A stretch of 64,000 nucleotides of DNA from Microterricola gilva (GTDB taxonomy: Bacteria > Actinomycetota > Actinomycetes > Actinomycetales > Microbacteriaceae), in NCBI RefSeq assembly GCF_004217495.1, contig NZ_SHLC01000001.1, positions 248,001-312,000 on the forward strand, in the 5' to 3' direction. Shown one piece after another: positions 42,113 through 53,588 of the stretch; the first letter of the stretch is position 1, and each line of letters starts with the position of its first letter. A program made the position numbers and the translations under genes. The notes below the pieces were generated by a model. That model saw only the letters and a list, made by a program, of their open reading frames with translations. It did no database searches and was not told the origin of the DNA.

Positions 42113-42165
42113 TTGGCAGTGTCTGTGCACTTCCCTAGGCTGCGACTGACCCCCGCAGGGGGGTC
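42113..42165 (+). promoter_or_regulatory. Promoter and leader hairpin of the nuclease/nucleotidase gene
   Basis: TTGGCA (42113-42118), 17-bp spacer, TAGGCT (42136-42141). GACCCCC-GCAG-GGGGGTC (42148-42165) forms a perfect 7-bp hairpin at about the transcript start, which may protect the 5' end. The leader would be about 105 nt. Confidence 0.65.
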
Positions 42166-42253
42166 GAACAGTCGCCCTGCTTGGCGCCACACCGCGGTCA
42201 CATCGCGGTCTTCGGCGCGCCAACAGGCGGGCACCCCATCGACAGGAGATCTC

Positions 42254-45200
42254 GTGCACCAGCAACACAGCTCCCGCTCGCGGAGGCTCGCAGCGCTCGC
42301 CGTCACGACGACGGCCGCGCTCGCCTTCACGGCGTTCGGTTCCACACCGGCATTTGCAGAGGACGCCGTCGCAGCGGCCGCCACCCACACGATCGCGCAG
42401 ATCCAGGGGACGGGCGCAGCCAGTCCGCTGCCGAACAACACCGCCGTCACCGTCGACGGCATCGTCACCGCCGACCACCGCGTCGGCGGGTTCGGCGGCA
42501 TCTTCGTGCAGACTCCCGGCGTCGGGGGCGACGTCGACCCGAGCCCAGGAGCCTCTGACGGCATCTTCGTCTTCCTCGGGGCCAACGCCGCAGCCGGCAT
42601 CGCCATCGGCGACCAGGTCACCGTGAGCGGCCTCGCCGGTGAGCGCAACGGACAGACCCAGATCAACGCGAGCGCCGGATCGGTCGCGCTCGTCACCGCC
42701 GGCGTCGGACTGCCCGCCCCCGTCGCCCTGCCGGACACCGTGCGCGGAGACGCCCGCGAGCCCTTCGAGGGCATGCTCGTCGCCCCGAGCGGCAGCTACG
42801 CGCTCAGCTCCAGCCACAACCTCTTCTCCTTCGGTGAGCTCTGGCTGAACGCCGGTGAGACCGCGGCGGTCAAGAGCACAGAGCTGGTCGGCCCCGGTGC
42901 GGAGGCCGACGCGATCACCGCAGCCAACAAGGCCGCGCGCGTGCTCGTCGACGACGGCTACAGCGTGCGCGTCACCGACGCGTCGCACAACGGCGATCAG
43001 CCCTACTTCACCAAGGACAACGTCGTGCGCAACGGCGACACCGCCGTGTTCCCCGCAGCCGGCATGGTCCTCGGCTACGGATTCAACGAGTGGCGCCTGC
43101 AGCCGCAGCTGCCGCTGACGGATGCCAGCGACGCCGCGGGCAAGGTGAGCTTCACCCCGGTGAACCTCCGCGCCGACGCACCGCCGGAGGTCGGCGGCGA
43201 CGTGAAGCTCGCCAGTTTCAATGTCTTCAACTACTTCACGACCCTCTCCAGCGTGAACTCCGCCGCCCGCGGCGCCGCGACGCAGCAGGAGTTCGACATC
43301 CAGAAGTCCAAGATCGTCGCAGCCATCAACGGCCTCGACGCCGACGTCGTCGCGCTGATGGAGATCGAGAACTCGGTCAAGCTCGGCACACCGGCCGACA
43401 TCGACGCGGCGCTGAATGACCTGGTCGCCGGCCTCAACGCCGCGGCCGGCTCGGAGATCTGGGCGGCCGTGCCGACCCCGACGGCGCTGAACGACGCCGC
43501 GATCACCGACTTCATCACGAGCGCCATCATCTACAAGAAGGATGCAGTGACCCCGGTCGGCGCGAGCAAGACCGTGATCGACGAGACCGTGTGGGACATC
43601 GCGCGTGAGCCGATCGCACAGACCTTCACCTTCGAGGGCAAGACGATCACCGTGGTCGCCAACCACTTCAAGTCCAAGAGCTCGCCCGGCGGCACCCCCG
43701 CGCCGCCGGAGCCGGCCGACGGGCAGGGCTTCTTCAATGCGGAGCGCACGGAGCAGGCCCAGTCCCTCCTCGCCTTCAGCCAGCAGCTGCAGGCGGAATC
43801 CGGCAGCGGCGACGTGTTCCTGATCGGTGACTTCAACGCCTACGCGCACGAGGACCCGATCAACGTCTTCACCGCGGCAGGCTGGACGGATGTCGTGCCG
43901 ACGCACGCCGCCGGCCAGTACACCTACACTTTCAACGGTGAGCTCGGCTCGCTCGACCACGTGCTCGCATCGCCGTCGGTGGCCCCGACGGTCACGGGCG
44001 CCGGCGTCTGGAACATCAACTCGCCGGAGTGGAGCGACCGCGGCTACGAGTTCGGCGCCACGGAGGCCGGCACCCCGTTCCGGTCCAGCGATCACGACCC
44101 GATCGTCGTCGGCGTCTCGCGGGAGGTGCAGCCCGTCGACATCAACGTCGTCACGGTCAACGACTTCCACGGCCGGCTCGAGCAGGCGGCACCCTCCGGC
44201 GGAGCCGCGGTTCTCGCCGGAGCGGTCAAGCAGATCCGCGACGCGAACCCGAACACGGTCTTCGCCGCGGCGGGCGACCTGATCGGTGCATCCACGTTCA
44301 CCTCCTTCATCCAGCAGGACAACCCGACGATCGACGCGCTGAACGCGGCGGGACTCGACGTCAGCTCCGTCGGCAACCACGAGTTCGACCAGGGCTGGGC
44401 CGACCTGAGCGGGCGTGTGCTCGACCGGGCCAACTGGGAGTACCTCGCGGCGAACGTCTACGACAAGACGACGGGGAAGCCGGCCCTGCCGGAGTACTTC
44501 ACCGAGACGTTCGAGGGCGTCACGGTCGGCTTCGTCGGCGCCGTCACCAACGAGCTGCCATCGCTGGTCAGCCCGGCTGGCATCGCCAACCTCGAGGTGC
44601 GCGATGTGACAACGGAGGTGAACCGCGTTGCCGACCAGCTGCGCGACGGTGATGCGGCCAACGGCGAGGCGGATGTCGTCATCCTGCTCGTCCACGAGGG
44701 CGCAGCCACGACCGCGATCGAGTCGGCAACCGACCCGAACTCGCCGTTCGGCAAGATTGTCACCGGCGTCGACTCCGACGTCAACGCGATCGTGTCTGGT
44801 CACACCCACCTCGCCTACAACCACGTGATCGACGGTCGCCCGGTGATCTCGAGCGGCCAGTATGGCGAGAAGTTCGGCCTGATGGATCTGCAGGTGAACC
44901 CGCAGACGAAGGAGCTGGTTTCGATCAGCAACGAGACGCTGCCGCTCATGAGCGCACCGATCCCGGCCACGCCGACGACGCCGGCCGTTCCCGCCAAGCC
45001 GCTCTACCCCGCGGTGCCGGAGGTCCAGGCCATCGTCGCCGATGCGGTCGCCGTCGCTGACGTGCTCGGTGCACAGAAGCTGGGCGACATCACGGCCCCG
45101 TTCAACCGCGCCAAGCTCTCCAACGGCACGACGGAGAACCGCGGCGGTGAATCCACGCTCGGCAACTTCGTGGCCGACGTGCAGCTGTGGGCAACGCAGA

Positions 45201-46321
45201 GCGCCGGAGCCCAGATCGCGTTCATGAACCCCGGCGGCCTGCGCACCGACATGCCGTTCGCCAGCTCGGGTCCGAACGACCCGGACGGCAACGTCACGTA
45301 CAAGGAGGCGGCCGTCGTCCAGCCGTTCGCCAACACGCTCGTGGCCATGGACATCACCGGCGCGCAGCTGAAGACGCTGCTCGAGCAGCAGTGGCAGCCG
45401 GCCGGAGCGAGCCGACCGTTCCTCAAGCTCGGCGTCTCGGAGGGACTGGAGTACAGCTACAACCCCGGCGCGGCTGCCGGTGCGCGCATCGGCGCCATCA
45501 CCCTGAACGGTGAGGCGATCGATCCGGCCGCCAGCTACCGCATCGCGGTGAACTCCTTCCTGGCATCGGGCGGCGACAACTTCGCCGTCCTCGCCTCCGG
45601 CACCAACCGCGCCGACACCGGCAAGGTCGACCTGGCGGCGATGGTCGACTACCTCGCCGTCAACTCGCCGGCCTCGCCCGACTACGCGCAGCGTGCCGTC
45701 GGTGCGGTGCTGAGTGCACCGGCGGATGCCGCTGGCTACAAGGCCGGTGAATCCGTCACCGTCACGCTCAGCTCGCTGGCCTTCGGCGACAGCACAACGC
45801 CGGCGCCCGGCACCGTTGAGCTCTCGCTCGGCGGCGCCGCCGTGGCATCCGCCCCCGTCGACGCGACGGTGACGGACGCCGTGTTCGACGAGACCGGAAC
45901 CGCAACCGCGCAGTTCACGGTGCCGGTCGGCCTCGACGGCGTGCAGCAGCTCGCGATCTCCGTCGCCGCGACGGGAACGGCGGTCTCGGTGCCGATGACG
46001 ATCCAGAGCGTCGTGGTGCCGGAGAAGATCGCCAGCATCACGCTCGGGGTTCCGAACAAGCTGCTGGCCAAGGCCGGGTCGGCCGTCAAGTACAACGTCA
46101 CTGTCGCGGCGGCCTCCGGGCCGCGTGCAACGGGAACGGTCGAGGTGCGTGACGGAGGAAAGGTCATCGCCACGATCGAGCTGACCGCAGCCGACAAGGG
46201 CAAGGCCAGCGTCAAGCTGCCGAAGCTCAAGCCGGGCATTCACCTACTGACGGCGCACTACCTCGGTTCGGACACCGTCAAGGCTTCACGAAGCCTGCCG
46301 GTTCCCCTGATCCTCTGGTAA
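42254..46321 (+). CDS. Secreted ExeM/NucH-type nuclease fused to 5'-nucleotidase
   Basis: Exported protein of 1355 residues. Signal peptide (about 1-35, A-F-A cleavage); an OB-like N-terminal domain (about 45-200, TIAQIQGTG, VTVDGIVTAD); an endonuclease/exonuclease/phosphatase domain (about 310-610: KLASFNVFNYF, A-L-M-E-I-E-N, VVANHFKSKSS, LIGDFNAY, SSDHDPIV); a metallophosphatase (about 630-900: VNDFHGRLEQ, AAGDLIGAS, GNHEFDQGW, GHTHLAYN); a 5'-nucleotidase C-terminal domain (about 930-1140: NPGGLRTDM, G-G-D-N-F-A-V-L); and two Ig-like repeats. It can degrade extracellular DNA and dephosphorylate the nucleotides. It ends without LPxTG or anchor helix. GTG 42254 follows AGGAG. Confidence 0.9.
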   Translation: MHQQHSSRSRRLAALAVTTTAALAFTAFGSTPAFAEDAVAAAATHTIAQIQGTGAASPLPNNTAVTVDGIVTADHRVGGFGGIFVQTPGVGGDVDPSPGASDGIFVFLGANAAAGIAIGDQVTVSGLAGERNGQTQINASAGSVALVTAGVGLPAPVALPDTVRGDAREPFEGMLVAPSGSYALSSSHNLFSFGELWLNAGETAAVKSTELVGPGAEADAITAANKAARVLVDDGYSVRVTDASHNGDQPYFTKDNVVRNGDTAVFPAAGMVLGYGFNEWRLQPQLPLTDASDAAGKVSFTPVNLRADAPPEVGGDVKLASFNVFNYFTTLSSVNSAARGAATQQEFDIQKSKIVAAINGLDADVVALMEIENSVKLGTPADIDAALNDLVAGLNAAAGSEIWAAVPTPTALNDAAITDFITSAIIYKKDAVTPVGASKTVIDETVWDIAREPIAQTFTFEGKTITVVANHFKSKSSPGGTPAPPEPADGQGFFNAERTEQAQSLLAFSQQLQAESGSGDVFLIGDFNAYAHEDPINVFTAAGWTDVVPTHAAGQYTYTFNGELGSLDHVLASPSVAPTVTGAGVWNINSPEWSDRGYEFGATEAGTPFRSSDHDPIVVGVSREVQPVDINVVTVNDFHGRLEQAAPSGGAAVLAGAVKQIRDANPNTVFAAAGDLIGASTFTSFIQQDNPTIDALNAAGLDVSSVGNHEFDQGWADLSGRVLDRANWEYLAANVYDKTTGKPALPEYFTETFEGVTVGFVGAVTNELPSLVSPAGIANLEVRDVTTEVNRVADQLRDGDAANGEADVVILLVHEGAATTAIESATDPNSPFGKIVTGVDSDVNAIVSGHTHLAYNHVIDGRPVISSGQYGEKFGLMDLQVNPQTKELVSISNETLPLMSAPIPATPTTPAVPAKPLYPAVPEVQAIVADAVAVADVLGAQKLGDITAPFNRAKLSNGTTENRGGESTLGNFVADVQLWATQSAGAQIAFMNPGGLRTDMPFASSGPNDPDGNVTYKEAAVVQPFANTLVAMDITGAQLKTLLEQQWQPAGASRPFLKLGVSEGLEYSYNPGAAAGARIGAITLNGEAIDPAASYRIAVNSFLASGGDNFAVLASGTNRADTGKVDLAAMVDYLAVNSPASPDYAQRAVGAVLSAPADAAGYKAGESVTVTLSSLAFGDSTTPAPGTVELSLGGAAVASAPVDATVTDAVFDETGTATAQFTVPVGLDGVQQLAISVAATGTAVSVPMTIQSVVVPEKIASITLGVPNKLLAKAGSAVKYNVTVAAASGPRATGTVEVRDGGKVIATIELTAADKGKASVKLPKLKPGIHLLTAHYLGSDTVKASRSLPVPLILW

Positions 46322-46606: not shown

Positions 46607-47290
46607 ATGACGAACTCACGCTGGGCGCGGTTCACGCGCGGGTGGGTCGTCGCCGCATTCTCCGTCTTCGTCGCGGCGCTCTCGCACAGTTTCGCCGGCG
46701 GCTCGACGCCGAGCTGGCTCGCGCTCGCGCTGGCCCTGGCATTCGCCTCGATGCTCAGCATTGCGCTCAGCGGTGGCCGTGCCCGCCCGGCATCCGCTCG
46801 CAGCACGGGCCGTGCGGCCCTCATCGGCACGGTGTTCTCCGTCGCCGGAAGCCAGGTCATCTTCCACGGTCTCTTCAGCCTGCTCGGCACCCTGCCTGCG
46901 CAGGGAACGGTGGTGCAGGCCGCGGCACTTGGCACGCACTCCGGGCACCAGCTCAGCCCCGTCCAGATCGCGACCCAGCTCGCGGCCATCGCGCCGCAGG
47001 GCACCGCGCTGCCGAGCGGCACGCACCACGACGCCTGGATGCTCGTCGGCCACACCATCGCCGGCCTGCTCACGATCGCGGCCCTGCTGCACGGCGAGCA
47101 GGCGCTGCGCGGCCTCGCCCGCACTGCCGGCCTCGCGCTCCGCGGCCTCGCGGTGCGTTCGATCGTGATCACCCCGATCACGGATGCCGCGCCCCAGCGC
47201 CCCGCGAGCACCGTCTGGATCCCGCGCCCGCTCGACGTCGTGCACGCGGCGCTGCGCCACCGCGGCCCGCCGCTCACCGCGGCCGCCTAG
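46607..47290 (+). CDS. Polytopic membrane protein upstream of ycnI-copC
   Basis: Membrane protein of 227 residues with about four hydrophobic helices (14-32, 36-55, 67-92, about 145-166). Between the third and fourth lies a loop with His-rich sequence (GTHSGHQLSP, GTHHDAWMLVGHT) that could bind metal. I recognise no family with certainty, but a membrane protein of this sort often precedes YcnI in actinobacteria, so copper handling is the likely context. The tail is Arg/Pro-rich and cytosolic. Start ATG 46607. Leads a co-directional cluster with ycnI (168 bp on) and copC. Confidence 0.7.
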   Translation: MTNSRWARFTRGWVVAAFSVFVAALSHSFAGGSTPSWLALALALAFASMLSIALSGGRARPASARSTGRAALIGTVFSVAGSQVIFHGLFSLLGTLPAQGTVVQAAALGTHSGHQLSPVQIATQLAAIAPQGTALPSGTHHDAWMLVGHTIAGLLTIAALLHGEQALRGLARTAGLALRGLAVRSIVITPITDAAPQRPASTVWIPRPLDVVHAALRHRGPPLTAAA

Positions 47291-47458
47291 CCCACGCAGA
47301 GCGTGAGGCCCCGGCCACCTCATCGCGCGCACCCCACGCACATCGCGTCGACCGCGCCCGCACCTTTCTCACCCATTCGCCGATCGTTCACGGCCATCCG
47401 GGCGGGTTCAGACCCGCGTCCGGAGCAACGGCCGCATCGGCTGCACACAAGGACTCTC

Positions 47459-48229
47459 ATGACCACTCGATCCACCTCCCCCTCCGCCCGCACGCGCACG
47501 CTGGCCGTCGCCGGCCTGGCCGCCGGCGCGCTGCTCGCGATCGGCGCCCCGCTGGCGGCATCCGCGCACGTTACCGTCACACCCAGCGACACGGCAGCAG
47601 GCGCGTACACGCTGCTCACCTTCTCTGCCGCGCACGGCTGCGAGGGATCGCCGACCACGAAGATGACGATCGACATTCCCGAGGGCATCATCTCGGTCAG
47701 CCCGACGGTGAACCCGAACTGGACGATCGAGAAGATCAGCACCGGTGAGGGCGACGCCGCCCGCGTGTCGCAGGTCGTCTACACGGCCATCACCCCGCTG
47801 GAGGACGGCTACCGCGACACCTTCGTGCTCTCGGCCAAGCTGCCGGATGCCGCAGCGGGCGAGACCCTCGAGTTCCCCGTGCTGCAGAGCTGCACCGTCG
47901 GCGAGACCAGCTGGAGCGAGACGAGCGTCGCCGGTGAGGACGAGCCGGAGCTGCCGGCACCCTTCATCGTGCTGACTGAGGCGGCCGCAGACGGCGACGG
48001 ACACGGGCACGCGGCAACCGGCACGGATGACGCGCACGCCGAGAGCGGCGAGGAGACCGCGGTCTCGCCCGAGGCGCCGAGCTCCGACCTGGTCGCTCGC
48101 ATCCTCGGCGTCGGTGGCCTGATCGTCGGCGCCATCGGCGTCACGCTGGCCGTCGTCACCCGGCGCTCCGCAAAGGCGACCGGCGCGGCCGGCACCGACC
48201 AGACGGCCGGCGACAAGGCCGCGAAGTAG
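47459..48229 (+). CDS. ycnI: YcnI-family (DUF1775) copper-linked membrane protein
   Basis: Protein of 256 residues. Signal peptide (about 1-37, ending A-S-A), so the mature chain begins H-V-T-V-T-P-S-D; this N-terminal His and the Trp of N-P-N-W are the known copper-binding brace of YcnI. The DUF1775 domain (about 38-175) has CEGSPTTKMTIDIPEG and YRDTFVLSAKLPD. A Gly/His/Asp/Glu-rich linker (DGDGHGHAATGTDDAHAE) and one C-terminal helix (about 215-238) follow, giving an outward-facing anchored domain. AAGGA lies six bases before ATG 47459. The copC gene follows after 9 bp. Confidence 0.9.
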   Translation: MTTRSTSPSARTRTLAVAGLAAGALLAIGAPLAASAHVTVTPSDTAAGAYTLLTFSAAHGCEGSPTTKMTIDIPEGIISVSPTVNPNWTIEKISTGEGDAARVSQVVYTAITPLEDGYRDTFVLSAKLPDAAAGETLEFPVLQSCTVGETSWSETSVAGEDEPELPAPFIVLTEAAADGDGHGHAATGTDDAHAESGEETAVSPEAPSSDLVARILGVGGLIVGAIGVTLAVVTRRSAKATGAAGTDQTAGDKAAK

Positions 48230-48238
48230 GCTGCCGTC

Positions 48239-48874
48239 ATGACGCGAAACCGGTTCTCCTCTGGCCGCGGCCTGCGGCAGCGCGCCGCGTGCGGTGCGGC
48301 CATCGCAGCGCTCGTACTCGGCACCGCCGTGTTCGGCGCGGCGGCACCGGCCTCGGCGCACAACCAGGTGCTCGACACGGTTCCGGCCGCCGACGCCGTC
48401 GTGACCGAGCAGCCAGGAACGTTCTCGGTGACAACGAGTGACGCCATCCTCGATGCCGAGACCGGCAACGCCATGGTGGTCAGCGGGCCGGCATCCGCCC
48501 CGCGCTACTACGGCGAGGGCTGCGGCGTCGTGACCGGGCCCACCCTGTCGCTCGACGCGCAGCTCGGTGAGCCGGGAATCTACACGGTGACGTGGCGGGC
48601 CATCTCGGTCGACTCCCACGTGATCTCGGAGTCGTACGAGTTCGAATGGGCCCCGGATGCCGGCGTGCAGCTGGCCGAGGGAACGGTCGAGCCCTCGTGC
48701 GCGGCCGCGAGCGGCCAGACGGGTGACGCCCCCGAGTCCGGCTCGGATGCCGGCACGGAGGGTGAGACGGCTCCGGCCGCCGAGCTCAGCAACCTGCTCT
48801 GGATCGGCGGCGCCCTCGGCGCCGCACTGATTGCCGTGCTCGTGACGGTGCTCGTGCTGCGCCGACGCCAGTAG
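48239..48874 (+). CDS. CopC-domain copper-binding membrane protein
   Basis: Protein of 211 residues: signal peptide (about 1-40, A-S-A), mature start H-N-Q-V-L-D-T-V-P-A with the N-terminal copper-ligand His, then a CopC beta-sandwich with YTVTWRAISVDSHVISESYEFEW, which carries the second His pair region. A Gly/Ser/Glu linker and a C-terminal helix (about 182-204) with R-R-R-Q anchor it. It probably carries copper at the outer face with YcnI. No CopD follows, unlike many copC loci. Translationally close to ycnI (9 bp). Confidence 0.9.
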   Translation: MTRNRFSSGRGLRQRAACGAAIAALVLGTAVFGAAAPASAHNQVLDTVPAADAVVTEQPGTFSVTTSDAILDAETGNAMVVSGPASAPRYYGEGCGVVTGPTLSLDAQLGEPGIYTVTWRAISVDSHVISESYEFEWAPDAGVQLAEGTVEPSCAAASGQTGDAPESGSDAGTEGETAPAAELSNLLWIGGALGAALIAVLVTVLVLRRRQ

Positions 48875-48962: not shown

Positions 48963-49628
48963 TCAGCTGCTCGGCAGCAGCACGGCGTCGATCAGGTACA
49001 CGGTGGCGTTGGCCGTGTGCACGCCGCCGCAGATGACGTTGGCGCCGTTGACCATGAGCTCGTCGCCGCTGCCGGTGACCTCGACGGTTCCCCCCTGCAC
49101 GGTGGTCTGCGTGCCGACGATGGCGTCGGGCGCGATCTGGCCGGGCACCACGTGGTACGTCAGAATCGAGCTGAGCAGGGCCGGGTCGGTCTTGAGCGTC
49201 TCGATGGTGGCGGGGTCGATCGCGGCGAAGGCGTCGTCAACGGGGGCGAAGACGGTGAACTCCGAGCCGTTCAGTGTGTCGACGAGGTTGACGTCGGGGT
49301 TCAGCTGCCCGGAGACCGCTGCGACGAGGGTCTTCAGGAGCGGGTTGTTCGAGGCCGCGACGGCGACGGGGTCTGACGACATGCCGACGATCGATCCGGC
49401 TCCGGACGGCACGGCGTCGGCGTAGGCCGCGCAGCCGGGGCCGACGAGGTTGGCTGCCGGGTCTGCCGTCATCGCGTCCGGCGTCGCACTGGGCGCCGAC
49501 TCCTCTGACGAACTCGAGTTCGAGTTGGAGTCGCCGGCGGCGGAGCCCATCGAACAGCCGCTCAGGGCGAGGGCGGCGATGGCGGCGACGCCGAAGGCAG
49601 TGAGCGTGGTGCTGGTGAAGTGACGCAT
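48963..49628 (-). CDS. Fasciclin (FAS1) domain lipoprotein, MPT83-like
   Basis: Lipoprotein of 221 residues: lipobox A-L-S-G-C at about 22-25, a Ser/Asn/Glu linker, then one FAS1 domain (about 85-220) with [20 protein letters not shown] (H1 region) and [11 protein letters not shown] (H2 region) and a final [10 protein letters not shown]. The form matches the mycobacterial MPT83/MPT70 group, which are secreted or anchored adhesion-type proteins. Start ATG 49628 follows GGAG. It diverges from a dipZ-like gene with a 172-bp gap holding two similar promoters, a link also seen at mpt83-dipZ-mpt70. Confidence 0.92.
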
Positions 49629-49693
49629 GGAAGTTCTCCTTCGATTGATCGGCTGGATGCCGTGGCCCACGCGCTGTGAGGGCTCAAGAGGGC

Positions 49694-49721
49694 ATTCGGC
49701 GGCATCCGCGGATCGGATTGG
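49694..49721 (-). promoter_or_regulatory. SigK-like ECF promoter of the fasciclin gene
   Basis: On the minus strand: CCAATCC (49721-49715), 15-bp spacer, CCGAAT (49699-49694), 65 bp before the ATG. It resembles the -35 CCATCC / -10 CCGAAT consensus I recall for mycobacterial SigK. Confidence 0.6.
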
Positions 49722-49745
49722 TCGTTTCCGAAACTGGCCTCGGCA

Positions 49746-49773
49746 CCAATCCCGATCGGGCCTGGCACCGAAC
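49746..49773 (+). promoter_or_regulatory. SigK-like ECF promoter of the dipZ-like gene
   Basis: CCAATCC (49746-49752), 15-bp spacer, CCGAAC (49768-49773), 27 bp before the GTG start. It has the same form and spacing as the opposing promoter at 49694-49721. Confidence 0.6.
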
Positions 49774-49800
49774 CCTCTGCAATCGCATCGAGAGGACATC

Positions 49801-51537
49801 GTGCTCACACTCGCTCTCATCGGCTTCGCCGGAGGCCTGATCACCGGCATCTCGCCGTGCATCCTGCCCGTTCTGCCCGTCATCTTCCTGTCCGGTGGCG
49901 TGCAGAGCGCACGCACGCAGCGCTCAGGCGGTGCCGTAGAGCTCGCCCAGGAGCCGTCGCGTTGGCGCCCCTACCTCGTCATCCTCGGCCTCGTCGTCAG
50001 CTTCAGCGTCTTCACGCTGATCGGCTCGCTGCTGCTGGCCGTGCTCGGGCTGCCGCAGGACGTGCTGCGCTGGGCCGGGATCGTGGTGCTCGTGCTGATC
50101 GGCATCGGCCTGATCGTTCCCCGCTTCGAGGCGATCCTCGAGAAGCCGTTCGCGTGGATCCCGAAGAGGGATGTCGGCACCGAGCGCGGCGGCTTCGTGC
50201 TCGGCATCGCCCTCGGCGCCGTCTACGTGCCCTGCGCCGGGCCGGTGCTCGCCGCGATCACGGTGGCTGGATCCACCGGCCGGATCGGCGTCGAGACCAT
50301 CGTGTTGACGGCGAGCTTCGCCATCGGCGCGGCCCTGCCGCTGCTGATCTTCGCCCTCGCCGGGCGGCGGGTCGCCGAGCGGGTGCGCGGCTTCCGCACG
50401 CATCAGCGCGGCATCCGCATCACGGGGGGCATCGTCATGATCGCGCTCGCGGCCGGGCTCGTCGTCAACCTGCCGCAGCTGCTGCAGCGACTCGTCCCCG
50501 ACTACACGAGCGCGCTGCAGGACCGGTTCGGCAACTCGGAGCAGATCACGGAGGCGCTCGACCTCGGCGGTCTCGTCACCGAGCAGAACAAGGACCTCGA
50601 CCAGTGCACGAACGGGGCGACCGAGCTGCAGAGCTGTGGGGTCGCACCCGACATCCGGGGCATTCAGGAGTGGTTCAACACGCCGGGCAACGCCCCCATC
50701 GCCCTGGACGAGCTGCGCGGCCAGGTCGTGCTCGTCGACTTCTGGGCATACTCCTGCATCAACTGCCAGCGCTCGATTCCGCACGTCGTCGCCTGGGACG
50801 CGGCCTACCGCGACGCCGGCCTCACGGTGATCGGGGTGCACGCGCCCGAGTACGCATTCGAGAAGGAGCCACGCAATGTGCGGGCGGGCGCCCAGGCCCT
50901 CGGCATCGAATACCCGGTCGCCCTCGACAACAGCCTCGCCACCTGGACCAACTACCGAAACCGCTACTGGCCTGCGCACTACCTGATCGACTCGGACGGC
51001 GTCGTGCGCCACATCCGCTTCGGTGAGGGCGGATACTCCGACACGGAGAAACTCATCCGGGAGCTGCTCACGGCGGCCGACCCGACGGTCAGCCTCCCCG
51101 CCCCGACGGACGTGGCGGACGCGACACCGCTCTCCGGCGCGACGACGCCGGAGAGCTACCTCGGCACGACGAAGCAGGTGAACTTCGCCGGGGCGGAGAA
51201 GTACTCGGCCGCGACGAGCCGCTTCCGGCTGCCGTCGGAGCAGCCGGCCGACAGCTTCGCGCTCGGCGGGCAGTGGACGCTCGGCACCCAGTCGATCGAG
51301 GCGGCACCGGGCACAGGCAACGGTGAGATCCGGCTGAACTACACGGCAGCAGAGGTGCGGATGGTGCTGGCAGGCAGCGGCACGGTGACGGTGAACGTCA
51401 ACGGCGAGCGGTCGAGCATCGAGGTGAGCGGGGTGCCGCGCTCCTACGAGCTGCTGGGCACGGATGCCGTGGCAACCGGAGCGCTCACCGTCACCCTGCC
51501 GCCCGGCGTGCAGGCGTTCTCCTTCACCTTCGGCTAG
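49801..51537 (+). CDS. dipZ: DipZ-like protein: CcdA/DsbD membrane domain plus thioredoxin and C-terminal domains
   Basis: Membrane protein of 578 residues. A CcdA-type domain (1-230, six helices) carries the electron-transferring cysteines Cys20 ([11 protein letters not shown]) and Cys145 (YVPCAGPVL). A TlpA/AhpC-like thioredoxin domain (about 285-430) has Y-S-C-I-N-C (Cys319, Cys322) in [11 protein letters not shown] beta-rich DipZ C-terminal domain (about 440-578) follows. It passes reducing power from cytosolic thioredoxin across the membrane. Two extra cysteines (about 269, 279) lie before the thioredoxin domain. GTG 49801 follows GAGAGGA. It diverges from the fasciclin lipoprotein. Confidence 0.92.
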
Positions 51538-51572: not shown

Positions 51573-53588
51573 GTGACTGATTACGCGGAGCCGGCCTGGG
51601 CAGAACCTGTCTGGGACGGCGAGGATTTCCCGCCGCCGCCCGAGGACGACTGGGCTCCGCCGGAGGACCCGTACTTCGCCAGCGCTGCGCCGTTTGACGC
51701 CGGGCGTCCCGCCGCGGCCCAGGCCGGCTACGCCGCCCCGCCGCCCGCGCAGGCGCGGCCGGCATCCGCCAAGTTCGCGAGCGCCGCCGAGGCGCTGCAC
51801 ACGGTCTTCGGCTACGACAGCTTCCGCGGTGAGCAGGCCGCCATCATCGACCAGGTCTCGGCAGGCGGCGACGCCGTCGTTCTCATGCCGACCGGTGGCG
51901 GCAAGAGCCTCTGCTACCAGATTCCCGCGCTCCTGCGCGAGGGAACCGGCATCGTCGTCTCCCCGCTGATCGCGCTGATGCAGGACCAGGTCGATGCGTT
52001 GAACGCCGTCGGCGTGCGCGCCGCCTACCTCAACTCCACCCAGGACCCGGGCACCCGGGCGGCCGTCGAGCGTGCCTACCTGGGCGGCGATCTCGATCTG
52101 CTCTACATCGCGCCGGAGCGCCTCGGCACCGAGCAGGCGAAGCAGTTCCTCGCCCGCGGTCACATCGCGCTGTTCGCGATCGACGAGGCGCACTGTGTCT
52201 CGCAGTGGGGGCACGACTTTCGGCCCGACTACCTCGCGCTCGGCGAACTGGCGGAACGCTGGCCGGACGTCCCGCGCATCGCGCTCACCGCCACGGCGAC
52301 CGAGGCGACGCACAAGGAGATCACCTCCAGGCTGCACCTCGAGCGGGCGGAGCACTTCGTCTCCAGCTTCGACAGGCCGAACATCCAGTACCGCATCGTG
52401 GAGAAGAACGAGGTGCGCAAACAGCTGCTCGACTTCATCCGCACCGAGCATGCCGGCGACGCCGGAATCGTCTACGCGCTCTCCCGTGCAACCACCGAGA
52501 AGACGGCGGCGTTCCTGCAGGCGAACGGCCTGAACGCGCTGCCGTACCACGCAGGCCTCGACGCCGGTGTGCGCGCCCGCACCCAGTCCCGCTTCCTCCG
52601 CGAGGACGGCGTGATCGTGGTCGCGACGATCGCATTCGGCATGGGCATCGACAAGCCCGATGTGCGCTTCGTGGCCCACATCGACCTGCCGAAGTCCGTC
52701 GAGGGCTACTACCAGGAGACGGGTCGTGCCGGCCGCGACGGCGAGGCCTCGACCGCGTGGCTCGCCTACGGCCTGCAGGACGTGGTGCAGCAGCGCCGCA
52801 TGATCGACCAGTCGCCAGGTGACATCGCGCACCGCCGCCGCATGTCCGCCCACCTCGACGCCATGCTCGCGCTCTGCGAGACGGTCGAGTGCCGCAGGGT
52901 CAACCTGCTCAGCTACTTCGGCCAGCCCAGCCGGCCGTGCGGCAACTGCGACACCTGCCTGGCCCCTCCCGCATCGTGGGACGGCACGGTACCGGCCCAG
53001 AAGCTGCTCTCGACGGTCGTCCGGCTGCGCCGCGAGCGCAACCAGAGCTTCGGCGCCGGTCAGATCATCGATATCCTGCGCGGCAAGCAGACGCCGCGCA
53101 CCACACAGCACCAACACGAGACCCTCGCCACCTGGGGCATCGGCGGTGACCTCGGCGACCAGCAGTGGCGCGGAGTGGTGCGCCAGCTGCTCGCACAGGG
53201 CCTCGTCGCGTCCACCGGCGATTACGGCACCCTGGCCATGACGGAGGCCGGCGGCGAGGTGCTCTCCGGTGCCCGCACGGTGTCGTTGCGGCACGAGCCG
53301 GAGCGCACGGCCTCCCGCAGCACCCGCTCAAGCAAGCAGACGGCCGCACTCGCCGATCTCAGCCCGGCCGATGTCGAGCTGTTCGAGGCGCTGCGCGCCT
53401 GGCGCGGGGCGACGGCGAAGGAACTCGAGGTGCCCGCCTACATCGTGTTCGGCGACGCAACGCTGCGCGCCGTCGCCGCAGCCAAACCTCGCTCGCTCGC
53501 CGAGCTCGACGGCATCAGCGGCATCGGCGCGAAGAAGCTCGAGTCCTACGGCGACGCCCTTGTCACCGTGGTCACCGCCTTCGGCTGA
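51573..53588 (+). CDS. recQ: ATP-dependent DNA helicase RecQ
   Basis: 3'-5' DNA helicase of 671 residues. An unusual N-terminal 65 residues are Pro/Ala/Asp-rich. Then motif 0/I ([14 protein letters not shown] at about 105-112), DEAH (204-207) with C-V-S-Q-W-G-H-D, motifs IV-VI ([24 protein letters not shown]), the zinc-binding Cys set (C-x-n-CGNCDTC), a winged helix and a C-terminal HRDC domain (about 600-668, with [16 protein letters not shown]). It acts in recombination and fork repair. GTG 51573. The spacing to dipZ is 35 bp, but co-regulation is doubtful. Confidence 0.95.

Follow-up and report, generated by a model that had tools for sequence, protein, structure and literature searches.

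The question raised by this locus is what reads the short space between a fasciclin gene and dipZ in Microterricola gilva, and whether the two proteins encoded on either side of it are tied in function as well as in position. In the window (the whole 64-kb stretch of DNA analysed), a FAS1 (fasciclin) lipoprotein gene similar to MPT70/MPT83 (48963..49628, minus strand) and dipZ (49801..51537, plus strand) diverge from a gap of 172 bp, with the FAS1 ATG at 49628 and the dipZ GTG at 49801. The gap holds two back-to-back elements of the SigK promoter type. The element directed toward FAS1 (49694..49721, minus strand) is composed of a -35 CCAATCC (49715-49721), a 15-nt spacer and a -10 CCGAAT (49694-49699); the one directed toward dipZ (49746..49773, plus strand) consists of a -35 CCAATCC (49746-49752), a 15-nt spacer and a -10 CCGAAC (49768-49773). 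Both had been proposed in a sequence-only reading of this DNA, and both are present with zero mismatches, each oriented toward its own gene. The 3' edge of the -10 element lies 65 nt from the FAS1 start and 27 nt from the dipZ start, and ribosome-binding-like sequences are found 5' of the two start codons (AAGGAG, 49636..49641, minus strand; GAGAGGA, 49790..49796, plus strand). As argued below, the two elements are very probably read by the SigK of the organism itself, and production of FAS1 and DipZ would be joint, whenever RskA permits it.

The proteins are of the mycobacterial kind, as had been supposed. The FAS1 protein (Pfam PF02469, 96.2 bits) matches the structure of MPT70 (1nyo, E 5.7e-60) and is encoded by the sole fasciclin gene of the genome; besides the lipobox Cys25 it has Cys66 and Cys200, which are aligned to both MPT70 cysteines and whose equivalents in MPT70 we take to form a disulfide. 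DipZ (578 aa) shows the fused architecture of a CcdA-like membrane part, covered by Pfam DsbD_TM, a thioredoxin-like part with the sequence SCINC and a C-terminal domain (Pfam AhpC-TSA and Thioredoxin_10); residues 242/246-578, comprising the last two parts, match the structures 2hyx and 5cyy (E 1.2e-113). The nearest named dipZ loci, among the best 80 of 426 relatives, are those of Leifsonia sp. Root4 (87%) and Microterricola pindariensis (83%), both Microbacteriaceae. The genome also contains sigK and rskA: SigK passes the NCBI model NF007228 (275.8 bits, cut-off 226) and has SigK 4nqw as its best match among solved structures (E 9.9e-50), and the rskA gene, which overlaps the end of sigK, is the only one in the genome with a RskA_C domain (PF10099, 96.3 bits). 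Neighbouring genes in the window code for a large nuclease/5'-nucleotidase fusion (42113-46321) and a RecQ-type helicase (51573-53588).

The exact pattern occurs three times in the 3.67-Mb genome (one contig) and its reversed control not once. The third copy (C1:2697336-2697363) is upstream of a gene coding for a DUF4383 membrane protein (Pfam PF14325). When one mismatch is allowed three more places appear, two of them with no evident role and one (C1:2701063-2701090, minus strand) upstream of the sigK-rskA pair, 153 nt 5' of the assumed sigK start; this start is uncertain because the copy lies within a longer open frame. A degenerate pattern gives six places (one in the control), four of which precede FAS1, dipZ, DUF4383 and sigK. 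Three identical copies in the genome of a 28-mer near the motif (G000:C1:2142385, 2401030, 3105717), and similar exact matches found twice each in G079 and G006, are likely false positives from repeated, possibly rRNA-linked, sequence.

It could be held that both motifs are chance matches, since with two mismatches allowed the window contains two matches against 2.16 expected from shuffles, no more than chance gives; at that stringency the search is uninformative, as it is for the whole genome (112 matches against 49 for the reversed control). Exact copies are nevertheless rare in the genome and the pair is conserved, which leaves coincidence a negligible probability. What supports the motif pair as putative promoters is its exactness, pairing, position and conservation. 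A matrix built from sites of the family, with both window sites in the training set, finds, over the 64 kb of the window, one site scoring at least 13 on each strand; when the tested genome is left out, the FAS1-side site scores 28.1 and the dipZ-side site 22.7, each with p at the floor of 200 shuffles. An RNA element in the gap was also considered, and it was dismissed on its single, sub-threshold Rfam match (20.4 bits against 50, E 0.71); the DNA fold of the gap has a z of -1.5.

The conservation of the gap was followed in 150 genomes of Microbacteriaceae, from which three protein sets were defined. SigK was detected in 96 genomes at E 1e-20, and 94 were kept after the weak matches of G006 and G089 had been dropped. 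Fasciclin matches amounted to 64 in 56 genomes, and the 44 with 89-103 bits that match the FAS1 of the window were retained; 13 higher-scoring and seven lower-scoring ones, some of them from SigK-less genomes, were set aside as other groups. Only full-length proteins were admitted to the DipZ set (28 genomes); excluded were CcdA- or TlpA-like matches that are shorter or weaker, and also a 36%-identical full-length match in G088. All 44 genomes with an MPT70-like FAS1 bear SigK, and none of the 56 SigK-less genomes has such a FAS1. Full-length DipZ is likewise accompanied by SigK in 28/28 genomes, and in 27 of them FAS1 is adjacent and divergent; the reverse does not hold, dipZ being missing from 17 of the 44 FAS1 genomes. 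As the genomes are related, p values attached to this co-occurrence are not to be taken literally. In 18 of the 28 dipZ genomes the sigK-rskA pair is found downstream of dipZ, in the same orientation and no more than about 2.3 kb away; in the genus of the window (three genomes) it lies elsewhere in the genome. In several dipZ-less genomes of the family (e.g. L193, L194, L195) FAS1 is divergent from sigK-rskA.

Site conservation was measured with a matrix of 63 consensus-chosen sites, always leaving out the tested genome and using 200 dinucleotide shuffles per test; the resulting p values are not literal, given how these sites were chosen and that the genomes are related. A site precedes FAS1 in 44/44 cases, all at the shuffle floor (p 0.005) and 43-96 nt before the start. 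Upstream of dipZ it is found in 26/29 genes at p <=0.05, that is, in 26 of the 27 beside FAS1 and in neither of the two away from it; the three exceptions are G021 (p 0.10), G087 and the second copy of G057, of which the latter two are not adjacent to FAS1. The motif pair is thus kept in the relatives of the organism, as the proposal of a SigK-type module demands. The same site stands before 4/5 DUF4383 genes and 30/45 sigK genes, being missing at p 0.05 from 15/45, including six stand-alone sigK genes. Scored with the full matrix (at least 13), sigK has its own site in 23/29 stand-alone loci versus 5/16 loci where it comes directly after dipZ/FAS1 (Fisher p 0.003). Sites in the opposite direction are significant 5' of 33/44 FAS1 genes, which is expected where the gap also holds the partner's site. 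In eight loci (L166, L176, L178, L179, L184, L185, L199, L215) the coding strand of sigK itself contains, within the gene, a copy of the motif with one mismatch, perhaps as a coding coincidence.

A de novo count of all gapped 5+5 words, in which no motif was supplied and three mononucleotide shuffles served as control, ranked ATCCG-N14-CCGAA and TCCAA-N18-CCGAA first upstream of FAS1 (21/44 genes each, shuffled maximum 3). For dipZ the opposite site came first (12/29), followed by CAATC-N16-CCGAA (11/29), and upstream of sigK the count did not return the motif, other words ranking first.

Several ECF sigma factors are encoded in each of these genomes of the family, with as many as 36 first-look candidates in one genome, so the elements might be read by one of these, or be operators of an unrelated regulator. 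This is improbable on several grounds. The exact copies with a 15-nt spacer stand out in the SigK-bearing genomes only: the 94 genomes with SigK have 97 copies with this spacer versus six with 14 nt and 16 with 16 nt, and the 56 without SigK have 11, 10 and 4 copies with spacers of 15, 14 and 16 nt, respectively. The same element is located 5' of sigK itself. Besides, in locus L369, of another family (f10), FAS1, dipZ and a second FAS1 follow one another in the same orientation, and each of them is preceded by a site (18.6, 20.6 and 26.7, scored with the matrix trained on Microbacteriaceae only), and the mycobacterial counterparts of these genes are reported to be SigK-dependent (PMC9861118, from an excerpt).

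The breadth of the arrangement was explored in the best 80 of 426 dipZ relatives in genomes of named species, a set that partly overlaps the family genomes above and in which two entries come from a single assembly of Mycetocola lacteus. FAS1 is divergent from dipZ in 73 of these best 80 loci, and both sites are present in 73/73 at no more than 5 of 100 block shuffles; a score of at least 13 is reached by 64/73 FAS1 sites and 60/80 dipZ sites, and sigK lies within the 4-kb flanks in 48/80. At FAS1 in these named loci the -35 most often reads CCCATCC (30/73), and CCATCC/CCGAAT is what we take to be the SigK consensus. The seven loci of the best 80 that are not divergent include two of Actinokineospora (FAS1 after dipZ on one strand), two of Microbacterium (FAS1 past sigK-rskA) and three with no visible FAS1, for one of which the record has almost no upstream sequence. 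Within the 73 loci, the first -10 base of one promoter does not covary significantly with that of its partner (Fisher p 0.07). Among the best 80, 24 loci are from outside Microbacteriaceae, going by the titles of their records, and 20 of them are divergent; site scores are lower there, with at least 13 at 12/20 FAS1 and 16/24 dipZ genes. These 24 belong to Lentzea, Amycolatopsis, Actinokineospora, Actinophytocola, one further member of Pseudonocardiaceae, 'Nocardia' NRRL S-836, Demequina and its kin, and Arthrobacter; the lineage was looked up for Demequina, Lentzea and Arthrobacter and is presumed for the remaining genera.

At class level DipZ was found at 1e-60 in 25 of 296 genomes. Apart from L369, G393 (family f8) has a divergent FAS1-dipZ pair with both sites. 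DipZ also occurs outside the module, as the DipZ loci of families f19, f20, f24 and f39 have no FAS1 within 1.5 kb; among them, G234 has a single site (17.1), upstream of dipZ. In G359 (L383, L388) dipZ is read in two overlapping frames and lies between two FAS1 genes. The divergent arrangement, as judged from gene order and predicted sites, recurs in at least four bacterial families. The proposed SigK-type module in divergent form is therefore borne out at the level of prediction, given the presence of SigK and RskA, the conserved sites and the 73 of the best 80 loci that are divergent with both sites. The regulatory reading is carried by the co-occurrence, the leave-one-genome-out sites and these divergent loci, and we infer from them that SigK polymerase would start at both elements, that sigK would be autoregulated and that RskA would gate the system.

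Other candidate targets emerge from 64 of the 108 exact sites with a 15-nt spacer in the family, which were read together with their surroundings. The genes that follow are sigK (9), DUF4383 (8) and a lipoprotein of 225-229 aa (6, in four genomes), with two each for CHRD-like, cupredoxin-like, YcnI-operon and ABC-ATPase genes and for one group more; another 22 occur singly, several of these inside other genes, and nine have no gene call. This set is a mixture of likely and chance sites. DUF4383 is a likely member of the predicted regulon. The 225-229-aa lipoprotein (loci L037, L228, L238, L240, L242 and L243; one member has no Pfam match) occurs in genomes G052, G122, G043 and G115, where SigK is present and the MPT70-like FAS1 is absent, and it is possibly a stand-in for FAS1. 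In L017 (G142) an exact site is found 46 nt 5' of a gene whose product is a membrane protein containing a molybdopterin oxidoreductase domain.

In the genus of the window, a membrane-protein gene with no Pfam match, YcnI (DUF1775) and CopC adjoin FAS1 (46607-48874 in the window), and YcnI is also near FAS1 in G050, G116 and G045. Exact sites precede, in single relatives, the YcnI operon (G052, G075) and a cupredoxin-like gene (L018, L253; Pfam run on L018 only). A copper regulon as a general rule, suggested by CopC and YcnI beside FAS1, was rejected: in 30 loci drawn from 100 YcnI genomes a site of at least 13 was found in 3/26 SigK-bearing and 0/4 SigK-less cases, and upstream of the window's own YcnI operon there is no SigK-type site.

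A functional tie between FAS1 and DipZ is supported only in part. The sequence-only reading had suggested that FAS1 lipoproteins are clients or partners of DipZ, and in mycobacteria it has already been proposed that DipZ may form the disulfides of MPT70/MPT83 (PMC9861118, from an excerpt). The genomic company of the two genes is strong and favours this, in one direction: 27 of the 28 dipZ genomes have FAS1. The cysteines do not add to it. The pair is kept in 44/44 FAS1 proteins of the family, 27/27 with dipZ and 17/17 without it, and in 76/77 named loci among the best 80 of 426, the exception being clipped by the locus end; as a mark of DipZ dependence it was consequently rejected, being invariant, and since it is constant without DipZ the client step is not required. 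The step from DipZ to FAS1 is the weakest link of the explanation, with a probability slightly below even. Nearly an even chance is likewise given to the alternative that the sites are SigK promoters and FAS1 and DipZ are merely co-induced in an envelope-stress regulon, with no client or partner tie. Such co-induction would agree with the 17/44 FAS1 genomes that lack dipZ, every one with the cysteine pair, with sites preceding unrelated genes (DUF4383, the 225-229-aa lipoprotein), and with the report on Mycobacterium kansasii, where light raised both fasciclin genes and not dipZ (PMC9861118, as excerpted). It agrees less well with dipZ being without FAS1 in just 1/28 family genomes and with the two genes being neighbours in 27 genomes, although members of a regulon could sit anywhere.

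In its SigK the family differs from mycobacteria. In M. tuberculosis the Cys133-Cys183 pair of SigK is needed for activation by RskA, and the same source states that these cysteines are not universal among SigK proteins and that RskA is more often absent or shortened where SigK lacks them (PMC7509140). Among 66 of the 94 SigK-bearing family genomes, none of the 66 SigK proteins has both equivalents and 65 have neither, the SigK of G142 having the first cysteine only. The SigK of this family would thus be unable to use the M. tuberculosis Cys133-Cys183 pair. Contrary to the reported trend, cysteine-free SigK is combined here with a long RskA, of 233-331 aa in the 44/44 proteins read, 42 of which have no cysteine.

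According to the explanation favoured for the promoters, RskA would hold SigK until a signal from outside releases or activates it; polymerase carrying SigK would then fire both divergent promoters, DUF4383 and sigK itself. An envelope thiol-redox response would follow, in which DipZ may deliver electrons to the outside while the FAS1 lipoprotein, which probably has a disulfide itself, may work on the surface of the cell. In its discussion, PMC7509140 describes what triggers SigK as unknown, and excerpts of PMC10449499 report that SigK does not matter for iron homeostasis in M. tuberculosis. Leads on light as a trigger come, in partial accounts, from the fasciclin response of M. kansasii already mentioned, from a soil actinobacterium in which RskA fell under UV (PMC8965627) and from a table of photo-oxidation in Rhodobacter sphaeroides that includes a fasciclin gene (PMC7074977).

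A SigK regulon with mpt83-like FAS1 and dipZ is already known. In the mpt83-dipZ-mpt70 locus of mycobacteria each gene is described with a SigK-dependent promoter (PMC9861118), and the FAS1-dipZ-FAS1 layout lies on a single strand (PMC9861118, PMC10540498); L369 resembles this triad in layout and promoter set. The M. tuberculosis complex shares with M. gilva homologues of MPT70-like FAS1, DipZ, SigK and RskA, and a sigK that lies apart from the FAS1-dipZ locus (PMC10540498). It differs in that two FAS1 genes flank dipZ on one strand, whereas here a single FAS1 is divergent from dipZ, SigK has no equivalents of Cys133/Cys183 and DUF4383 is a likely regulon member. The mpt83-sigK-rskA cassette, for which PMC7509140 cites Veyrier 2008, likewise joins FAS1, sigK and rskA under a common promoter code, but here dipZ comes between the FAS1 promoter and sigK-rskA, or the cassette is split. 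The cskE-sigK-dipZ island of Corynebacterium pseudotuberculosis unites sigK, an anti-sigma gene and dipZ, and no FAS1 gene figures in the excerpted account (PMC3078919). The same excerpts confine full-length actinobacterial dipZ to pathogens, in contrast to its presence in 28/150 Microbacteriaceae genomes. The literature search returned no publication describing, for these families, FAS1 and dipZ diverging from SigK promoters, and priority is not claimed; likely to be new are the divergent arrangement and how widely it occurs, DUF4383, and the combination of cysteine-free SigK and long RskA that marks the family.

A wider interpretation is offered only tentatively, and we consider it less probable than not by some distance: mpt83-dipZ-mpt70 of the tubercle bacilli might be a rearranged version of an envelope thiol-redox circuit that is widespread among actinobacteria. 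In this circuit a bidirectional block of SigK promoters would couple the production of a FAS1 disulfide protein at the surface to that of the protein supplying its electrons, under the control of RskA and an outside signal (possibly light or photo-oxidation) and with no cysteine switch in SigK. For Microbacteriaceae, the results indicate that this switch is outside the conserved core of the system. The complete SigK-RskA-FAS1-DipZ module of the family would provide non-mycobacterial, non-pathogen hosts for studying the signal, the client relation and the promoter code, and those Demequinaceae, Micrococcaceae and Pseudonocardiaceae that have the FAS1-dipZ promoter block may likewise offer further hosts outside the mycobacteria.
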